DNA from: Bacteroidota bacterium
Lineage (GTDB): Bacteria; Bacteroidota; Bacteroidia; Bacteroidales; UBA4417
Direction: 5' to 3'
DNA length: 35,491 nucleotides
Assembly: GCA_013376995.1 (NCBI GenBank)
Contig: JACAAZ010000031.1
Coordinates: 1 to 35,491, forward strand
The notes below the pieces were generated by a model, which did not search any database, had not been told where the DNA came from, and saw nothing but the letters and a program-made list of their open reading frames with translations. The position numbers and the translations under genes were made by a program. Below, piece by piece: positions 28,582 to 35,329 of the stretch. Numbering within the stretch: the first letter of the stretch is position 1; every line of letters begins with the position of its first letter.

Positions 28582-29082
28582 TCAGAAAGGCCAGAATTGG
28601 TTGTCAAACCAAATGTCTTCCTTAAGCTGTTCATTCAACTCATGAAGGATTTTGTGATGACCGCTTTCCCATTCTGCAAGCCATTGGTACAATTCTTTTT
28701 CATTTGGATCGTCCGATTCTGCAGCACGTTTCGAGTAAACTTCGACAGCACGGGTTTCAAAATCCATAGCAGCAGAAATAGCAGCAGCCTCAAAGCTGGC
28801 AGCAGAGATTTGTTTCACAATGGCACTATTCATGATTTCGTGCGAAACATCATCATTTCCAACTGATTTATCCGGTTTTAGAAATGAATGTTCTTTGATA
28901 TAATGGCTGAATTGAACTGAGAGGAATTCTACATGGGCTTTCTCCTCTTCTGCCATTATTGTGAATATTTTTTTGGCTTCAGGACTTTGGGTTTGCTCTG
29001 CCATCTTTTCGTAGAAAGCTTTCCCTCTTTTTTCCATCAGGATCGCTGTTTTCAGGATCTCCAATGCTTTAGTATTCTCCAT
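28582..29082 (-). CDS. rubrerythrin-like ferritin-fold diiron protein
   Basis: A 166-residue four-helix diiron protein, probably reducing peroxide or handling iron under oxidative stress. Two E-x-x-H motifs are visible: EEEKAH (E47, H50) and EWESGH (E139, H142), with likely partner ligands E17 and E109. The C-terminal rubredoxin domain of classic rubrerythrins is absent, so it must receive electrons from another donor or serve a different role. The start at 29082 (MENTKALEIL) is preferred over an upstream ATG at 29154, because a TATCTTTG -7 box lies at 29119-29126, inside that extension, and the family begins at the helix. Confidence 0.88.
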   Translation of the reverse strand: MENTKALEILKTAILMEKRGKAFYEKMAEQTQSPEAKKIFTIMAEEEKAHVEFLSVQFSHYIKEHSFLKPDKSVGNDDVSHEIMNSAIVKQISAASFEAAAISAAMDFETRAVEVYSKRAAESDDPNEKELYQWLAEWESGHHKILHELNEQLKEDIWFDNQFWPF

Positions 29083-29118
29083 ATATCTTGTTTTGAATGA
29101 GTTGTAAAACCTATCATG

Positions 29119-29126
29119 CAAAGATA
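29119..29126 (-). promoter_or_regulatory. -7 element for rubrerythrin-like gene
   Basis: TATCTTTG on the minus strand matches TAnnTTTG, about 35-45 nt ahead of the ATG. No TTTG lies at the expected -33 spacing; two TTTG copies are at 7 and 25 nt. Confidence 0.5.
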
Positions 29127-29202
29127 CTTTTTTCAAACAGAAAAATGGTTTCAAACGCTATTTTTCCTGAAATTCTTGTTCTTCTGCAAGCCAAAAAAAT
29201 GG

Positions 29203-29230: not shown

Positions 29231-30694
29231 TTGGCATTCAATAAAAACACTAGTACGTTGGAAAAGGATCATATAGAATCATTAAGGAAGTTGTTTAGTA
29301 ACTGGTCTGGAGAACAGGGAATTGAGGTCAATGAGTTACCTGCAGCCGGTTCATATAGACAGTACTACAGGATCAACGGGCAGAACAAAAATGCTATAGG
29401 TGTATTTAGTCCTGATAAACAGGAGAATAAAGCCTTTCTGGGCTTCACAAAGCATTTTAGTTCCTGCGGATTAGCAGTTCCTGACATTTACGCAGTGGAT
29501 GAATCCTCCGATTGTTATCTTCTCAGTGACCTTGGGGACTTATCATTGCTTCAAAAATTGGAAGAAGGTCGAAAGAATGGAAGACCGGATGCTGTTACCA
29601 TCGACCTATACAAAGCTGTAATCAAAGAATTGCCGCGTTTCCAGGTAGAAGCTTCAGCCGGGCTTAATTACAACCTTTGTTATCCGGTAAAGGAGTTTGA
29701 TGCGCGAAGTATGCGTTGGGATCTGAATTATTTCAAGTACTATTTTCTGAGACTGTTGAAAATACCATTTAATGAACATGCCCTTGAAAATGACTTTGAT
29801 CGGCTTATTCTTTATTTATTGAAAGCCGGTACCTCATTCTTTATGTACCGTGATTTCCAGGCCCGTAATATCCTTATCCATCAAGGGAAACCATGGTTTA
29901 TTGATTACCAGGGAGGTAGAAGAGGCCCATTGCAGTATGACCTGGCATCCCTTTTATTCCAGGTAAAAGCAGATTTGCCATTTGATTTGAGGGAAGAAAT
30001 GCTGAATGAGTACCTGGATTGCCTCTCAAAATATCACAAGGTTGACAGGGCTGCTTTCATTAGCTCCTATTATGGTTTTGTTCTCATCAGGCTTTTACAG
30101 GTAATGGGTGCATACGGATTCAGGGGCTATTTTGAACGCAGGGCTCATTTCCTCCAAAGTATTCCTTATGCTATTGAAAATGTAAAATGGTGGCTTGATA
30201 ATATTCAACTGGAACCTCAGTTGCCTGAGCTGATGAAAGCTTTGAGGGTCATTGCTGTCACAGATGTACGGACACCTTTCGCGAGTATCGAACAGGGCCT
30301 TACTGTGTCCGTAAATAGTTTCGCCTATAAAAATGGAGCTCCAATCGATTACTCCGGTAATGGCGGAGGTTTCGTTTTCGATTGCCGGGCTTTGCCAAAC
30401 CCGGGAAGGTATGAGCATTTTAAATCATTTACCGGAAAGGATTCCTTGGTGCGGCAGTTCCTGGATAGAGAGCCACTTGTTGATAAATTCCTTGCGAATG
30501 TCTATAAATTGGTGGATCAGTCTGTTCTTGAATACCAGAGAAGAGGATTTTCAAGCTTGCAGGTTAACTTTGGATGTACTGGTGGCCAGCATCGATCAGT
30601 GTTCTGTGCGGAGAAATTAGCCAAATACCTTGAAGAAAAATATTCATTGGAAGTTAAACTCTACCATACTGAACTGGATAAGCAATGGTTGTAG
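29231..30694 (+). CDS. AmgK-like sugar kinase fused to RapZ C-terminal domain
   Basis: A 487-residue fusion. Residues about 25-330 form an aminoglycoside-phosphotransferase-fold kinase closest in motif to AmgK (anomeric MurNAc/GlcNAc kinase): YRDFQARN (D208, N213), FIDYQGG (D225) and GPLQYDLASL. Residues about 357-487 match the RapZ C-terminal domain: FDCRALPNPGR (384-), FTGKDSLVRQFLDR and GCTGGQHRS (448-456). That domain binds glucosamine-6-phosphate in E. coli RapZ. The RapZ N-terminal P-loop domain is missing. It starts with TTG (29231), preceded by AGAGGA; a second TTG at 29258 is possible. It heads an operon with a MurU-like enzyme. The sugar substrate and sensor role are inferred. Confidence 0.87.
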   Translation: MAFNKNTSTLEKDHIESLRKLFSNWSGEQGIEVNELPAAGSYRQYYRINGQNKNAIGVFSPDKQENKAFLGFTKHFSSCGLAVPDIYAVDESSDCYLLSDLGDLSLLQKLEEGRKNGRPDAVTIDLYKAVIKELPRFQVEASAGLNYNLCYPVKEFDARSMRWDLNYFKYYFLRLLKIPFNEHALENDFDRLILYLLKAGTSFFMYRDFQARNILIHQGKPWFIDYQGGRRGPLQYDLASLLFQVKADLPFDLREEMLNEYLDCLSKYHKVDRAAFISSYYGFVLIRLLQVMGAYGFRGYFERRAHFLQSIPYAIENVKWWLDNIQLEPQLPELMKALRVIAVTDVRTPFASIEQGLTVSVNSFAYKNGAPIDYSGNGGGFVFDCRALPNPGRYEHFKSFTGKDSLVRQFLDREPLVDKFLANVYKLVDQSVLEYQRRGFSSLQVNFGCTGGQHRSVFCAEKLAKYLEEKYSLEVKLYHTELDKQWL

Positions 30695-30723
30695 ATGTTT
30701 TGGTACTGTAAACCCCCGCTTGA

Positions 30724-31089
30724 TTGGAAAATATTGATATAGAGCTATATAAGACCCGACCGGAGATCATCAGGCAAACTGTTCTGCAGGTAGTCAAGGA
30801 TTTTTCCATGTTCGGGATCGATGTTTCTTTTACCGGGAATACGGAAATGGCTTACAACGAATTGTTTTTTCAGTTGTCAAATCATATTCAGCGGCTCCTG
30901 GAAAATGATTTTGGCAAATTGTCTGCCTTGCTCTACCAGGTTGATATCAGTGAGCGTAAGATATTTGATTCAATTGCCGACCATCCGGAATATACCCATG
31001 CTGAAGTTTTAACCGAATTGGTCATACACAGGGAACTCAAAAAAGTGCTCATCAGGAATTATTTTAAAAATCAAAAATCCGGTCAATGA
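30724..31089 (+). CDS. unknown 121-residue protein inside wall-salvage operon
   Basis: I do not recognise this protein. It is acidic to neutral, without signal peptide or membrane segment, and looks mostly alpha-helical (EMAYNELFFQLSNHIQRLLE, EVLTELVIHRELKKVLIRNYFK). The start codon is TTG at 30724; no ATG occurs before the Phe-Gly segment at about residue 29, so the TTG is required to keep the ORF coherent with the 30-nt gap from the kinase fusion. The stop overlaps the MurU-like gene by 4 nt (ATGA), indicating coupled translation. Its position between the kinase and the nucleotidyltransferase suggests a partner or regulator of one of them. Confidence 0.8.
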   Translation: MENIDIELYKTRPEIIRQTVLQVVKDFSMFGIDVSFTGNTEMAYNELFFQLSNHIQRLLENDFGKLSALLYQVDISERKIFDSIADHPEYTHAEVLTELVIHRELKKVLIRNYFKNQKSGQ

Positions 31090-31823
31090 AGGCAATGATC
31101 TTTGCAGCAGGACTTGGTACGCGGTTAAAACCCTATACCGAGAATCTTCCCAAGGCTTTGGTCCCTGTTGCCGGAAAACCGATGATTGAACATGTAATCC
31201 TGCGATTAAAACAATTTGGTATCGAGGAAATAATTGTTAATGTTCACCATTTTGCTGACCAGGTTATTGATTTTCTGGAACAAAACAAGAATTTCGGTAT
31301 AGGGATAGAAATATCGAATGAGTCAGGCCAACTGCTTGAAACAGGCGGAGGCCTGTGGAAGGCATCCTGGTTTTTCAATGACGGGGCTCCTTTCCTTGTT
31401 CATAATGTAGATATTTTCAGTGAGATTGACCTGGCTGAAATGCTTGTTTATCATAGACATCATGAAGCATTGGCCAGTTTAGCTGTAAGCAGCCGGGAAA
31501 CATCCCGTTATTTCCTGTTTGATAGTACATTTCGACTTTATGGATGGGAGAATATTGCTAAGATGGAGCAGATGCTTATTGGAATGTCGAGGGATGAGCT
31601 TACAAGAATGGCATTCAGTGGTATACAAATTCTCGACCCACGCATTTTTAGTTTACTCAATAAAAAAGGCAGATTCAGCCTGGTGGATGTTTACCTGGAA
31701 CTTGCCGGTGCGAATAAAATATTGGGATTTCCACACGACCCGAATACCTGGGTTGATATGGGAAAACCAGCAGATATACTGAAGGCTGAAACCATGATTA
31801 ATCAATCTTTCAGTGCTGACTGA
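31086..31823 (+). CDS. MurU-like sugar-1-phosphate nucleotidyltransferase
   Basis: A 245-residue nucleotidyltransferase that would form a UDP-sugar from a sugar 1-phosphate and UTP. The signature AAGLGTRLKPYTENLPKAL is at residues 7-25 (G-x-G-T-R and the PK catalytic Lys), with VHNVDIF as the metal-binding Asp motif, ETGGGLWKA and the C-terminal WVDMGKP. Its size fits MurU (about 220-250) and it lacks the left-handed beta-helix of GlmU. Paired with the AmgK-like kinase it gives the two steps of the MurNAc recycling bypass known from Pseudomonas (UDP-MurNAc without passing through GlcNAc-6-phosphate). A mannose or glucose 1-phosphate substrate is the alternative. Confidence 0.9.
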   Translation: MKAMIFAAGLGTRLKPYTENLPKALVPVAGKPMIEHVILRLKQFGIEEIIVNVHHFADQVIDFLEQNKNFGIGIEISNESGQLLETGGGLWKASWFFNDGAPFLVHNVDIFSEIDLAEMLVYHRHHEALASLAVSSRETSRYFLFDSTFRLYGWENIAKMEQMLIGMSRDELTRMAFSGIQILDPRIFSLLNKKGRFSLVDVYLELAGANKILGFPHDPNTWVDMGKPADILKAETMINQSFSAD

Positions 31824-32443: not shown

Positions 32444-35329
32444 ATGCAGTCCTTCCTTGAAAAATTAGCGAGTCATCTATTAACTGAAGGTGGAGAAGAT
32501 TTCAGCAGGTTTTGCATTGTATTTCCAAATCGAAGAGCTGGATTGTTTCTTAAGCAATATTTGTCAAGGTTGATATCTAAACCCTTGTGGCTGCCTGAAA
32601 TAGTTGCACTTGAGGATTTTGTCATCCTGAAATCCCGTTTGTCAATTCCCGACCAGCTGACACTCCTGGTAAAACTCTACAGGGTTCATCAATCCATAGA
32701 AGGTTTTAAAGCAAAACCATTTACTGAGTTCATTTCGTGGGGTAACATACTTTTGGCCGATTTTGACGAAATTGATCAGTACCTGGTTGATGGTGAGGCT
32801 GTTTATGAATACCTGGATGAAATTAAGGCCATGAACCTCTGGAATCCGGATGGATCTCCGCTGACTGATTTTGAAAGAAAATACCTGCTATTTTATAATT
32901 CTTTATCGACTATTTATAGCCAATTCAGAAAGGAACTTCTTGAAGCAAAGCAGGGTTATTTTGGCCTGGCATTCTCACAGCTGATAGAAAACCTGGATGC
33001 TGAGTCATTCGGCGAATGGGATAAGATTGTGTTTGCCGGGTTCAATGCCCTGACCATTGCTGAGGAGAAATTGATTTCTGAATTGATTTCAAAGGGGAAA
33101 GGGGAGGTCTATTGGGATGTGGATGAATATTATCTGACTGATGCGAGGCAGGAAGCCGGGAGGTTTCTGAGGAACTATCTTAAAGATAAGAAGTTCGGAG
33201 AGATGAAGTGGATAGGCAATTCATTGAAAACCAATCAAAAGGACATAACAATTGTCGGGGTTCCGGGGAATATCGGGCAAGCTAAAGTTGCCGGGCAGAT
33301 AACCTCTGAGTTGATTAAGAACATTGATCCGTCTGAAATTGCAATTGTTCTTGTGGATGAAGGACTTATGCTTCCTGTGCTCAATTCAGTGCCATCAGAA
33401 TTGGAGCACTTCAATGTCACTATGGGTTTTCCAATTAAGCTTACTCCAGTATTCAGCCTTTTCGATTCTATATTCAAGCTTTTCCTGCATGGACAGAAAG
33501 CAGGCCAAAAAAGCGGTAGTGGAACAAGGGAAGAAGTCACGAATATGCGCTTTCATTATAAGGATATTAAGCGATTTATTGATCATCCTTATATGGAAGA
33601 AATTTCTGCTAAGGCCATTGAGAGAAGTGGAATTTTGAACAAGGAAGGCAGGGTTTTCTTTTCACCGGAAGAATTGAGGCAGATTATCAATGATGACACA
33701 TTACCTCTTTCAGTTATATTGAAGGAACTGATCATGGGAAATGAGTTAAAGCCACGATCCATGCTGACTTTAATGGCTGAACTCATAAACTTCTACAGAA
33801 TATTGTTTCTTGAAAGGGAATCCAGGGGTGATTCCTCTCACAGCGTTGATCTGGAGTATCTTTATACATACTCAATCCTTATTGAGAAACTTGAATCCAT
33901 AATTGAGGAGACTGATCTTGTAGCAGATCTTGAAACATTTCATGAAATTTATACATCCCAGGTGTCAGGAACGCGGCTCCCTTTCTATGGCGAGCCACTC
34001 AAGGGATTACAGTTGATGGGTATGTTGGAAACGCGTACTCTCGATTTCCGGAATATTATTATGCTTTCGGTTAATGAAGGATTGTTGCCCAAAGGGAAAC
34101 ATCAGAATACTTTTTTAACTGATGAACTGAGACGGGAGTTCGGATTGCAGCGTTACAACGAGCGCAATGCGGTATTTGGATATCACTTTTACAGGTTACT
34201 GCAAAGGTCAGATAATATATACCTGCTTTATAATACAGAGGGGAATGAGTTCGGGGGAGGGGAAAAAAGCCGGTTTATCACCCAGATTATGTACGAGCTG
34301 CCATTGTATAATCCTGGAATCCATATTAAGGAGACCATATTTTCAATAGCTCCTTCTGGAAACCCTGATCTGCCGGTACAAATAAATAAGAATGATGAAA
34401 CGCTGAAAAAGATTCTGGCCATTGCTGAGAAAGGGTTTTCACCTACAGCAATTGGCAGATATTTAGCTTGCAGCCTTCAATTTTATTTTGCCCAGGTTCT
34501 GGGGATGAAGGAACCTGACCTCCTGGAAGAATCCATTGATGCAGCTGCGATGGGGGAGATCATTCATGAGGTACTGCATAAAGTGTATTTGAAGTTTGAG
34601 GGCAGTGAATTGGTTAAGGATAATCTCGATAAAATGTATCAATTGGCTGAGACCAGTGTGAGAGATGAGTTTCTTGCCAGATATTCACTTCCAGAACTTG
34701 AATCAGGAAAAAACCTGTTAATTCTCAAAGTGGCCCAGAACATGGTAAAGCAATTCCTGAAAGCAGAGGGCCAATTCATTGAAAAGCTGCCAGCTGGCAA
34801 ACAGAAGATCAAAATCCTTTGCCTCGAGCAATCGTTGGAGTCAAGTATACCCATAGCTGATCAGCGAACGGGTGAGATGTTTAATGTGAGGATAAAGGGA
34901 ACAGCTGACCGGATTGACCTGGTTGATGGAACTATCCGTATCATTGACTATAAGACCGGCCTTGTAAAGATGCAGGAAGTAAAGATTAATTCAATTGATG
35001 AGTTACTCAAACATGATAACCCTGCAAAACTGGTGCAACTTTTAACATACGCATGGCTGTACAGGTGTTCTAAGGATACGGCCCCTATATCATCGGTTAA
35101 GTTGATATCAGGGATAATTTCAATGAGGCTTTCCTCTCGATATCTAATCAATGCTACGATTGGGAAGATTGAAGAGATTGACGATCAGGTACTTTTGACA
35201 TTTGAATCATTGCTTGGCAGGATTATTTCAGATATTGTTGATTCCGAAAAGCCGTTTGTTCAGACTGATAACCTGGATGTTTGTAAAAACTGTGCATACC
35301 AATCTATCTGTAACCGAACGATTAATTGA
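32444..35329 (+). CDS. addB: AddB-like PD-(D/E)XK nuclease with iron-sulfur cluster
   Basis: A 961-residue protein with the layout of the AddB subunit of the AddAB helicase-nuclease, which processes double-strand breaks for RecA loading. The N-terminus has a UvrD-like, inactivated helicase start (CIVFPNRRAGLFLKQYL, near residue 27). The C-terminal nuclease has the GTADRIDL Asp (D822) and IDYKTG (D835, K837). Four cysteines form the iron staple: C676 (LACSLQF), then C947, C950 and C956 (CKNCAYQSIC), with the same C-x2-C-x5-C spacing as in B. subtilis AddB. No addA (UvrD-type helicase) follows in the window; a tRNA lies 120 nt downstream. Symbol given by similarity. Confidence 0.85.
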   Translation: MQSFLEKLASHLLTEGGEDFSRFCIVFPNRRAGLFLKQYLSRLISKPLWLPEIVALEDFVILKSRLSIPDQLTLLVKLYRVHQSIEGFKAKPFTEFISWGNILLADFDEIDQYLVDGEAVYEYLDEIKAMNLWNPDGSPLTDFERKYLLFYNSLSTIYSQFRKELLEAKQGYFGLAFSQLIENLDAESFGEWDKIVFAGFNALTIAEEKLISELISKGKGEVYWDVDEYYLTDARQEAGRFLRNYLKDKKFGEMKWIGNSLKTNQKDITIVGVPGNIGQAKVAGQITSELIKNIDPSEIAIVLVDEGLMLPVLNSVPSELEHFNVTMGFPIKLTPVFSLFDSIFKLFLHGQKAGQKSGSGTREEVTNMRFHYKDIKRFIDHPYMEEISAKAIERSGILNKEGRVFFSPEELRQIINDDTLPLSVILKELIMGNELKPRSMLTLMAELINFYRILFLERESRGDSSHSVDLEYLYTYSILIEKLESIIEETDLVADLETFHEIYTSQVSGTRLPFYGEPLKGLQLMGMLETRTLDFRNIIMLSVNEGLLPKGKHQNTFLTDELRREFGLQRYNERNAVFGYHFYRLLQRSDNIYLLYNTEGNEFGGGEKSRFITQIMYELPLYNPGIHIKETIFSIAPSGNPDLPVQINKNDETLKKILAIAEKGFSPTAIGRYLACSLQFYFAQVLGMKEPDLLEESIDAAAMGEIIHEVLHKVYLKFEGSELVKDNLDKMYQLAETSVRDEFLARYSLPELESGKNLLILKVAQNMVKQFLKAEGQFIEKLPAGKQKIKILCLEQSLESSIPIADQRTGEMFNVRIKGTADRIDLVDGTIRIIDYKTGLVKMQEVKINSIDELLKHDNPAKLVQLLTYAWLYRCSKDTAPISSVKLISGIISMRLSSRYLINATIGKIEEIDDQVLLTFESLLGRIISDIVDSEKPFVQTDNLDVCKNCAYQSICNRTIN

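Follow-up and report, generated by a model that had tools for sequence, protein, structure and literature searches.

In Pseudomonas, which lacks MurQ, MupP dephosphorylates N-acetylmuramic acid (MurNAc)-6-phosphate, and the product is then used by AmgK and MurU (PMC5371407). In RapZ of Escherichia coli, the C-terminal domain presents a pocket lined by H190, T248, G249, H252 and R253, in which malonate or sulfate is bound by the backbone of T248 and G249 and the side chains of H252 and R253 (PMC5737377); this pocket is the proposed site for glucosamine-6-phosphate (GlcN6P) (PMC9841335). Here we analyze a window of 35,491 nucleotides (the whole stretch under study: contig JACAAZ010000031.1, assembly GCA_013376995.1, from a Bacteroidota bacterium of the Bacteroidales) in which cognates of both systems meet in a single gene: an open reading frame (ORF) of 487 amino acids specifies an AmgK-like kinase fused to a RapZ C-domain and is followed by a MurU-like gene. 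The fusion is real and far beyond chance, because 75 relatives align over both of its halves at 47-68% identity. As to what the fused protein does, the interpretation that we rank first, tentatively, is that of a bifunctional enzyme combining an anomeric kinase with a cysteine-dependent MurNAc-6-phosphate phosphatase.

Architecture and conservation of the fusion

The fusion gene (29231..30694, + strand, as are all its parts) is supported by the ORF call, NCBIfam, Pfam and a sequence match to the PDB; its start is a TTG, predicted by the ORF caller. The kinase part spans about residues 16-343 (29276..30259), as delimited by the alignment of relatives, the structural model and the Pfam APH domain (PF01636, residues 42-262, 41.1 bits against a cut-off of 23.2). 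It is joined by a poorly conserved linker (about residues 344-357, 30260..30301), in which model confidence falls below 50 at residues 349-354, to the RapZ C-domain (PF22740, residues 358-482, 30302..30676, 117.6 bits against a cut-off of 27). An earlier note, made from the DNA letters and their translations, had placed kinase motifs and a RapZ C-terminal signature in one protein, and the co-occurrence of APH and PF22740 in this ORF confirms it. All the motifs it quoted are present: YRDFQARN (residues 206-213, 29846..29869), the catalytic loop, in which R207, D208, R212 and N213 are invariant in the 76 aligned proteins; FIDYQGG (residues 223-229, 29897..29917), which contains the invariant metal-binding D225; and, in the C-domain, FDCRALPNP, beginning at residue 383, and GCTGGQHRS (residues 448-456, 30572..30598).

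Among named models, AmgK scores best toward the N terminus of the protein and RapZ over the second half only, both below their cut-offs. The two AmgK models (NF045759 and NF045698) reach 68.9 against a cut-off of 550 and 59.4 against one of 500; the RapZ model (NF003828) scores 108.3 against 244. Like AmgK, the best-matching named family, the kinase half has an APH-type fold, keeps the catalytic Asp and Asn and the metal-binding Asp (D208, N213 and D225) invariant across the fusions, and usually lies beside a MurU-like gene; it differs in falling far under the equivalog cut-offs and in carrying a C-domain. Its nearest solved relative, by both sequence and Foldseek, is 3csv, a putative aminoglycoside phosphotransferase. 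In the comparison with AmgK and RapZ suggested in the earlier note, the C-domain matches E. coli RapZ structures both by sequence and by its model, and the kinase model is nearest to 3csv. In the catalytic loop, the fusions show Y/F-R-D-F-Q as opposed to the H-R-D of the stand-alone AmgK-like kinases that were fetched. The stand-alone forms at L106-L110 (family f17; here and below G denotes a genome, L a fetched locus and f a family in the genome sample) read H-R-D-F/Y-H-S-R-N and usually overlap a MurU-like gene. Neither the fusion clade nor the kinase-only loci L103 and L105 keep the His of this loop.

The genome from which the window comes contains one RapZ C-domain in all, the fused copy, and no match to the RapZ N-domain (PF03668) anywhere, which agrees with the earlier observation that the N-terminal P-loop half is missing. 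By comparison, the C-domain and the N-domain both match in the same six of 14 control genomes, and in six of 20 fusion-bearing genomes there is a second, separate RapZ C-domain gene, which specifies a full-length RapZ with the P-loop N-domain. In a tree of 57 C-domains (46 fused, from every second fused locus, four split or alone and seven canonical), the seven canonical RapZ proteins stand apart from the other 50 with a support of 100/100 (a rough value, as the bootstrap had not settled), and the split C-domains fall inside the fused clade.

A C-x5-R-S loop and the distribution of AnmK and MurQ

The GCTGGQHRS motif constitutes a C-x5-R-S anion loop in which C449 corresponds to C247 and R455 to R253 of E. 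coli RapZ (b3205). All 76 aligned fusions have C449, T450, G451, G452, H454, R455 and S456, and likewise D373, D384 and D404, candidates by conservation for a general-acid Asp. C-x5-R is the signature of the phosphatase P-loop, with the Cys as nucleophile and the Arg and backbone amides holding the phosphate (PMC7589817), and we infer from the sequence that the loop of the fusion is linked to it. The likeness to cysteine-based phosphatases (PTP/DUSP) extends to the position of the loop, flanked by a strand and a helix, and to amides and an Arg that would hold the phosphate; it does not extend to the fold or the sequence, neither of which gave a match, so that similar loop chemistry is the most that can be shared. 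Membership of the C-domain in the PTP/DUSP group was considered and is not claimed. In E. coli RapZ, both C247A and C247S abolish activity, leading the authors to suggest a catalytic -SH, and in crystals with GlcN6P the density is likely that of a transformed product (PMC9841335). Among its homologs, YvcJ of Bacillus subtilis has reported NTPase and phosphatase activity, with no assignment to the C-domain given there (PMC7525490), and HpaP, cited alongside RapZ homologs, is by title an ATPase and phosphatase (PMC7525490, PMC7073468). The loop that had been taken as the signature of a sensor is also one that suggests catalysis.

In the reaction sequence that we propose, AnmK would yield MurNAc-6-phosphate as the substrate of the fusion's C-domain, which, primarily an enzyme and not a sensor, would remove the 6-phosphate and supply free MurNAc to the kinase half; in this reaction C449 would act as nucleophile, with the phosphate held by the loop amides and R455. 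The AmgK-type N-terminal half would make MurNAc-1-phosphate, and perhaps also N-acetylglucosamine (GlcNAc)-1-phosphate, and the MurU-type neighbor would convert MurNAc-1-phosphate to uridine diphosphate (UDP)-MurNAc. The putative dephosphorylation would be the step that MupP (NF009696) takes in Pseudomonas, after AnmK and before the anomeric kinase (PMC5371407), but MupP is a HAD enzyme unrelated to the fusion C-domain in sequence and mechanism.

The content of the genome is consistent with such a route. Its AnmK passes the NCBIfam equivalog cut-off; MurQ was not found in it (best E 7e-8; we called MurQ present at a best E of <= 1e-30, a cut-off of our own, weaker matches being shared SIS-domain cross-matches); and its six HAD_2 proteins all fall below the cut-off of the MupP model (at most 42.1 bits against 359). 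The cell-wall salvage context envisaged earlier is thus likely, with AnmK present and MurQ absent as in the anabolic salvage route. In the same genome, AnmK directly adjoins murF on the same strand (L119, G000:C18:31000-36500), as if recycling and the synthesis of UDP-MurNAc-peptide were linked.

We tallied the RapZ C-domain, the kinase, AnmK and MurQ in a sample of 198 Bacteroidota genomes. The C-domain occurs in 24, all of which have the kinase, the kinase alone in 43 and AnmK in 136. All eight genomes that have AnmK and lack MurQ carry the C-domain and the kinase, and they belong to six families (f1, f3, f4, f15, f33 and f40); conversely, MurQ is present in 119 of 119 genomes that have AnmK and no RapZ C-domain (Fisher 1e-8, uncorrected for kinship). 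AnmK is found in 17 of the 24 genomes with the C-domain as against none of the 43 kinase-only genomes.

Spread and genomic neighborhood

The search of Bacteroidota neighborhoods that had been recommended recovers the same fusion, which is also present in other phyla. When one genome per species was scanned, at least 589 stretches encoding a relative were obtained, not all of them checked for both halves; of the 80 loci kept from the scan, 80 of 80 match across both halves, and their titles include Bacteroidota, Neomarinimicrobiota, Ignavibacteria, Calditrichia, KSB1, Acidobacteria and Elusimicrobia. Of 109 fetched loci (L002-L110), 99 have both domains in a single ORF, three have them in adjacent genes and seven have the kinase only. 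Leaving aside the window copy, 78 of the 99 single-ORF loci have a MurU-like gene immediately downstream, as do 3/3 split loci and 6/7 kinase-only loci; of the 21 single-ORF loci without an adjacent one, four end too early, one has it farther away and 16 have none within the fetched DNA.

In the gut Bacteroidota Parabacteroides distasonis and Bacteroides finegoldii (L129 and L130, 5992-7422), the fusion proteins, of 476 amino acids each, bear the annotation 'RNase adapter RapZ', and a nucleotidyltransferase gene comes next. They score 105.6 and 105.8 with the NCBI RapZ model, below its cut-off of 244, and the P. distasonis record, the one of the two so checked, has the kinase domain by Pfam. 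No paper naming both 'RapZ' and 'AmgK' was found in the open-access library searched, a search that leaves subscription papers and preprints mostly outside its coverage.

In the window, the MurU-like sugar-1-phosphate nucleotidyltransferase (245 amino acids, 31086..31823, +) is supported by NCBIfam, Pfam and a PDB match. Its top NCBIfam model is MurU (NF045761, 137 bits, below the curated cut-off of 250), a second MurU model gives 114.5 bits against 370, and its best solved match is 4y7t, a 'Nucleotidyl transferase'. The pairing of an AmgK-type kinase with a MurU-type enzyme made in the earlier note is thus supported by NCBIfam and Pfam, and the MurU-like gene does lie downstream; in detail, a called ORF of 121 amino acids (30724..31089, +) intervenes. 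This ORF belongs to a family without assignment, having no match in Pfam or NCBIfam, and relatives 52-66% identical to it occupy the same position in eight fetched Bacteroidales-type loci. Upstream of the fusion is a gene for a rubrerythrin-like protein (28582-29154, - strand), with relatives upstream in 11 other fetched loci. Downstream of the operon, a gene (32444-35329, +) specifies a 961-residue protein that has a PD-(D/E)XK nuclease domain and is weakly similar to AddB-type proteins; 12 other fetched loci also have it downstream. An Rfam scan of the window returned a single feature, part of a bacterial 16S rRNA gene at its edge (1-359, - strand), and no riboswitch near the fusion operon.

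Phosphatase, sensor or scaffold

Several observations weigh against a MurNAc-6-phosphate phosphatase. The 43 kinase-only genomes comprise 42 from one family plus one other and are hardly independent. Plain co-occurrence with AnmK is weak, at 17 of 24 C-domain genomes versus 119 of the 174 other Bacteroidota. Seven C-domain genomes lack AnmK (G019, G031, G116, G124, G140, G156 and G188, five in family f16 and two in f34), six of these also lacking MurQ, and nine have both AnmK and MurQ. We also wrote down a prediction before turning to a second phylum, that of the fusion genome G205 (locus L025, titled Acidobacteria bacterium), sampled with 199 genomes: genomes with AnmK and no MurQ should carry the fusion, and those with AnmK and no fusion should have MurQ. 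Both halves failed, in that the fusion is found in none of 43 AnmK-positive, MurQ-negative genomes and MurQ in 25 of 68 AnmK-positive genomes without the fusion; moreover, all five fusion genomes of this phylum have MurQ. Among the matches listed for the fusion query there, most are stand-alone kinases or canonical RapZ; therefore the MurNAc-6-phosphate route in that phylum must differ or use other phosphatases. MupP was looked for only in the genome of the window, and other phosphatases could take this step. A contrast in favor of the phosphatase, examined post hoc, after the data had been seen, is that AnmK is present in 5/5 fusion genomes of the second phylum as compared with 8/68 genomes with a stand-alone kinase among the matches listed. 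From the side of structure, the 50 of 186 Foldseek matches listed for the C-domain model contain no phosphatase (RapZ accounts for all 16 at E<=0.001), and none emerged from a profile search of the PDB or a Pfam scan of 76 C-domains. The RapZ papers liken the fold of the domain to phosphofructokinase. The C247 mutants of E. coli RapZ also lost RNA binding, a simpler cause of their inactivity (PMC9841335), and, as GlcN6P binding by that protein is regulatory, the loop may do no more than bind. Our confidence in the bifunctional enzyme is held down because the prediction failed and a fold match is absent.

The second-ranked and rather unlikely alternative is close to the proposal of the earlier note, namely that the C-domain senses GlcN6P or a related amino-sugar phosphate and tunes the attached salvage kinase without any RNA. 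On its own, the C-domain of E. coli RapZ has a KD of 10 nM for GlcN6P by surface plasmon resonance (PMC7073468), and the domain always occurs with the kinase, all 24 C-domain genomes among the 198 Bacteroidota matching the fusion query. The pocket, on the structural alignment of which the note had staked its idea, gives a divided answer. Of the five pocket residues described for E. coli RapZ, four (T248, G249, H252 and R253) recur in the aligned fusion C-domain, as does K170, but a Gly takes the place of H190 in all 103 C-domains of the fusion family, including the window copy (in NPG, residues 390-392, 30398..30406), and loss of this His inactivates the E. coli protein (PMC9841335); in seven canonical RapZ proteins, the position is His in five and Tyr in two. 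The fusion clade further has a five-residue insertion near the pocket region in sequence, absent from the seven canonical RapZ proteins aligned or printed, of which GNGGG (residues 376-380, 30356..30370, G378-G380 invariant in the 76 aligned proteins) is a part. The linker is likewise ambiguous: a length of 22 residues in 58 of 76 fusions would suit a coupled pair and gives no support to loose tethering, but mean conservation is 0.33 in the linker versus 0.65 and 0.67 in the domains (76 aligned), and the model of the whole fusion, with a mean predicted local distance difference test (pLDDT) score of 90.1 within domains, has a predicted template modeling (pTM) score of 0.70 overall and low confidence at residues 349-354. 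The kinase and the C-domain are separate genes in four of the 24 C-domain genomes, as adjacent ORFs in G012, G095 and G031 and on different contigs in G180. In G009, the kinase is kept without the RapZ C-domain, and the same genome lacks AnmK. Obligate gating of the kinase in cis is unlikely because the linker is poorly conserved and modeled with low confidence and the halves can be separate genes; such split genes are compatible with either a phosphatase or a sensor. Gating by GlcN6P in the wider sense is only partly supported, and a pure sensor explains neither the -SH requirement nor the AnmK pattern.

A phosphatase for another amino-sugar phosphate, such as GlcNAc-6-phosphate or GlcN6P, with the kinase and nucleotidyltransferase leading to UDP-GlcNAc and not UDP-MurNAc, is improbable. 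The kinase and its partner score below the AmgK and MurU cut-offs and may therefore act on different substrates, GlcN6P is preferred by E. coli RapZ (PMC7073468), and six C-domain genomes lack both AnmK and MurQ; yet the top named models are AmgK and MurU, and the set of Bacteroidota with AnmK and no MurQ points to MurNAc-6-phosphate. It is more improbable still that the C-domain is a dimerizing or scaffolding module without ligand chemistry that joins the kinase to its partner: RapZ C-domains do dimerize (PMC7073468) and the domain can sit on a separate gene, but such a role offers no reason for the invariance of C449, H454 and R455. An RNA-binding, RapZ-like regulator of glmS is largely excluded. 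The two Bacteroidales records annotated as an RNase adapter and the retention of K170 and R211 would speak for it; set against these, K251 is replaced by Gln, R238 by Phe and K194 by His, the genome of the window has no RapZ N-domain, and only Enterobacteriaceae are reported to have the RNA-binding region of RapZ (PMC7073468). We rejected a role as an RNA adaptor on the absence of the N-domain and of the basic C-terminal tail, the latter judged by alignment with E. coli RapZ. The relation to RapZ accordingly lies in the C-domain, which scores above the Pfam cut-off, has the same fold and keeps the C-x5-R-S loop; the P-loop domain, His190, the missing insertion and the RNA-binding tail set E. 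coli RapZ apart from it.

Even if the C-domain proves not to be a phosphatase, the annotation 'RNase adapter RapZ' is corrected for this family of kinase fusions. If it is one, it would bridge the gap from AnmK to the anomeric kinase in bacteria without MurQ. It would also explain the loss of activity of E. coli RapZ C247S and give RapZ, the primordial role of which its authors regard as open (PMC7073468), an ancestral function. In this broader form, which we put forward more tentatively than the bifunctional enzyme itself, RapZ C-domains may be unrecognized cysteine-dependent amino-sugar-phosphate phosphatases; within the fusion, the domain would then supply the MurNAc-6-phosphate phosphatase otherwise missing in Bacteroidota and other phyla, and GlcN6P sensing by E. 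coli RapZ would derive from an enzyme put to a new use.

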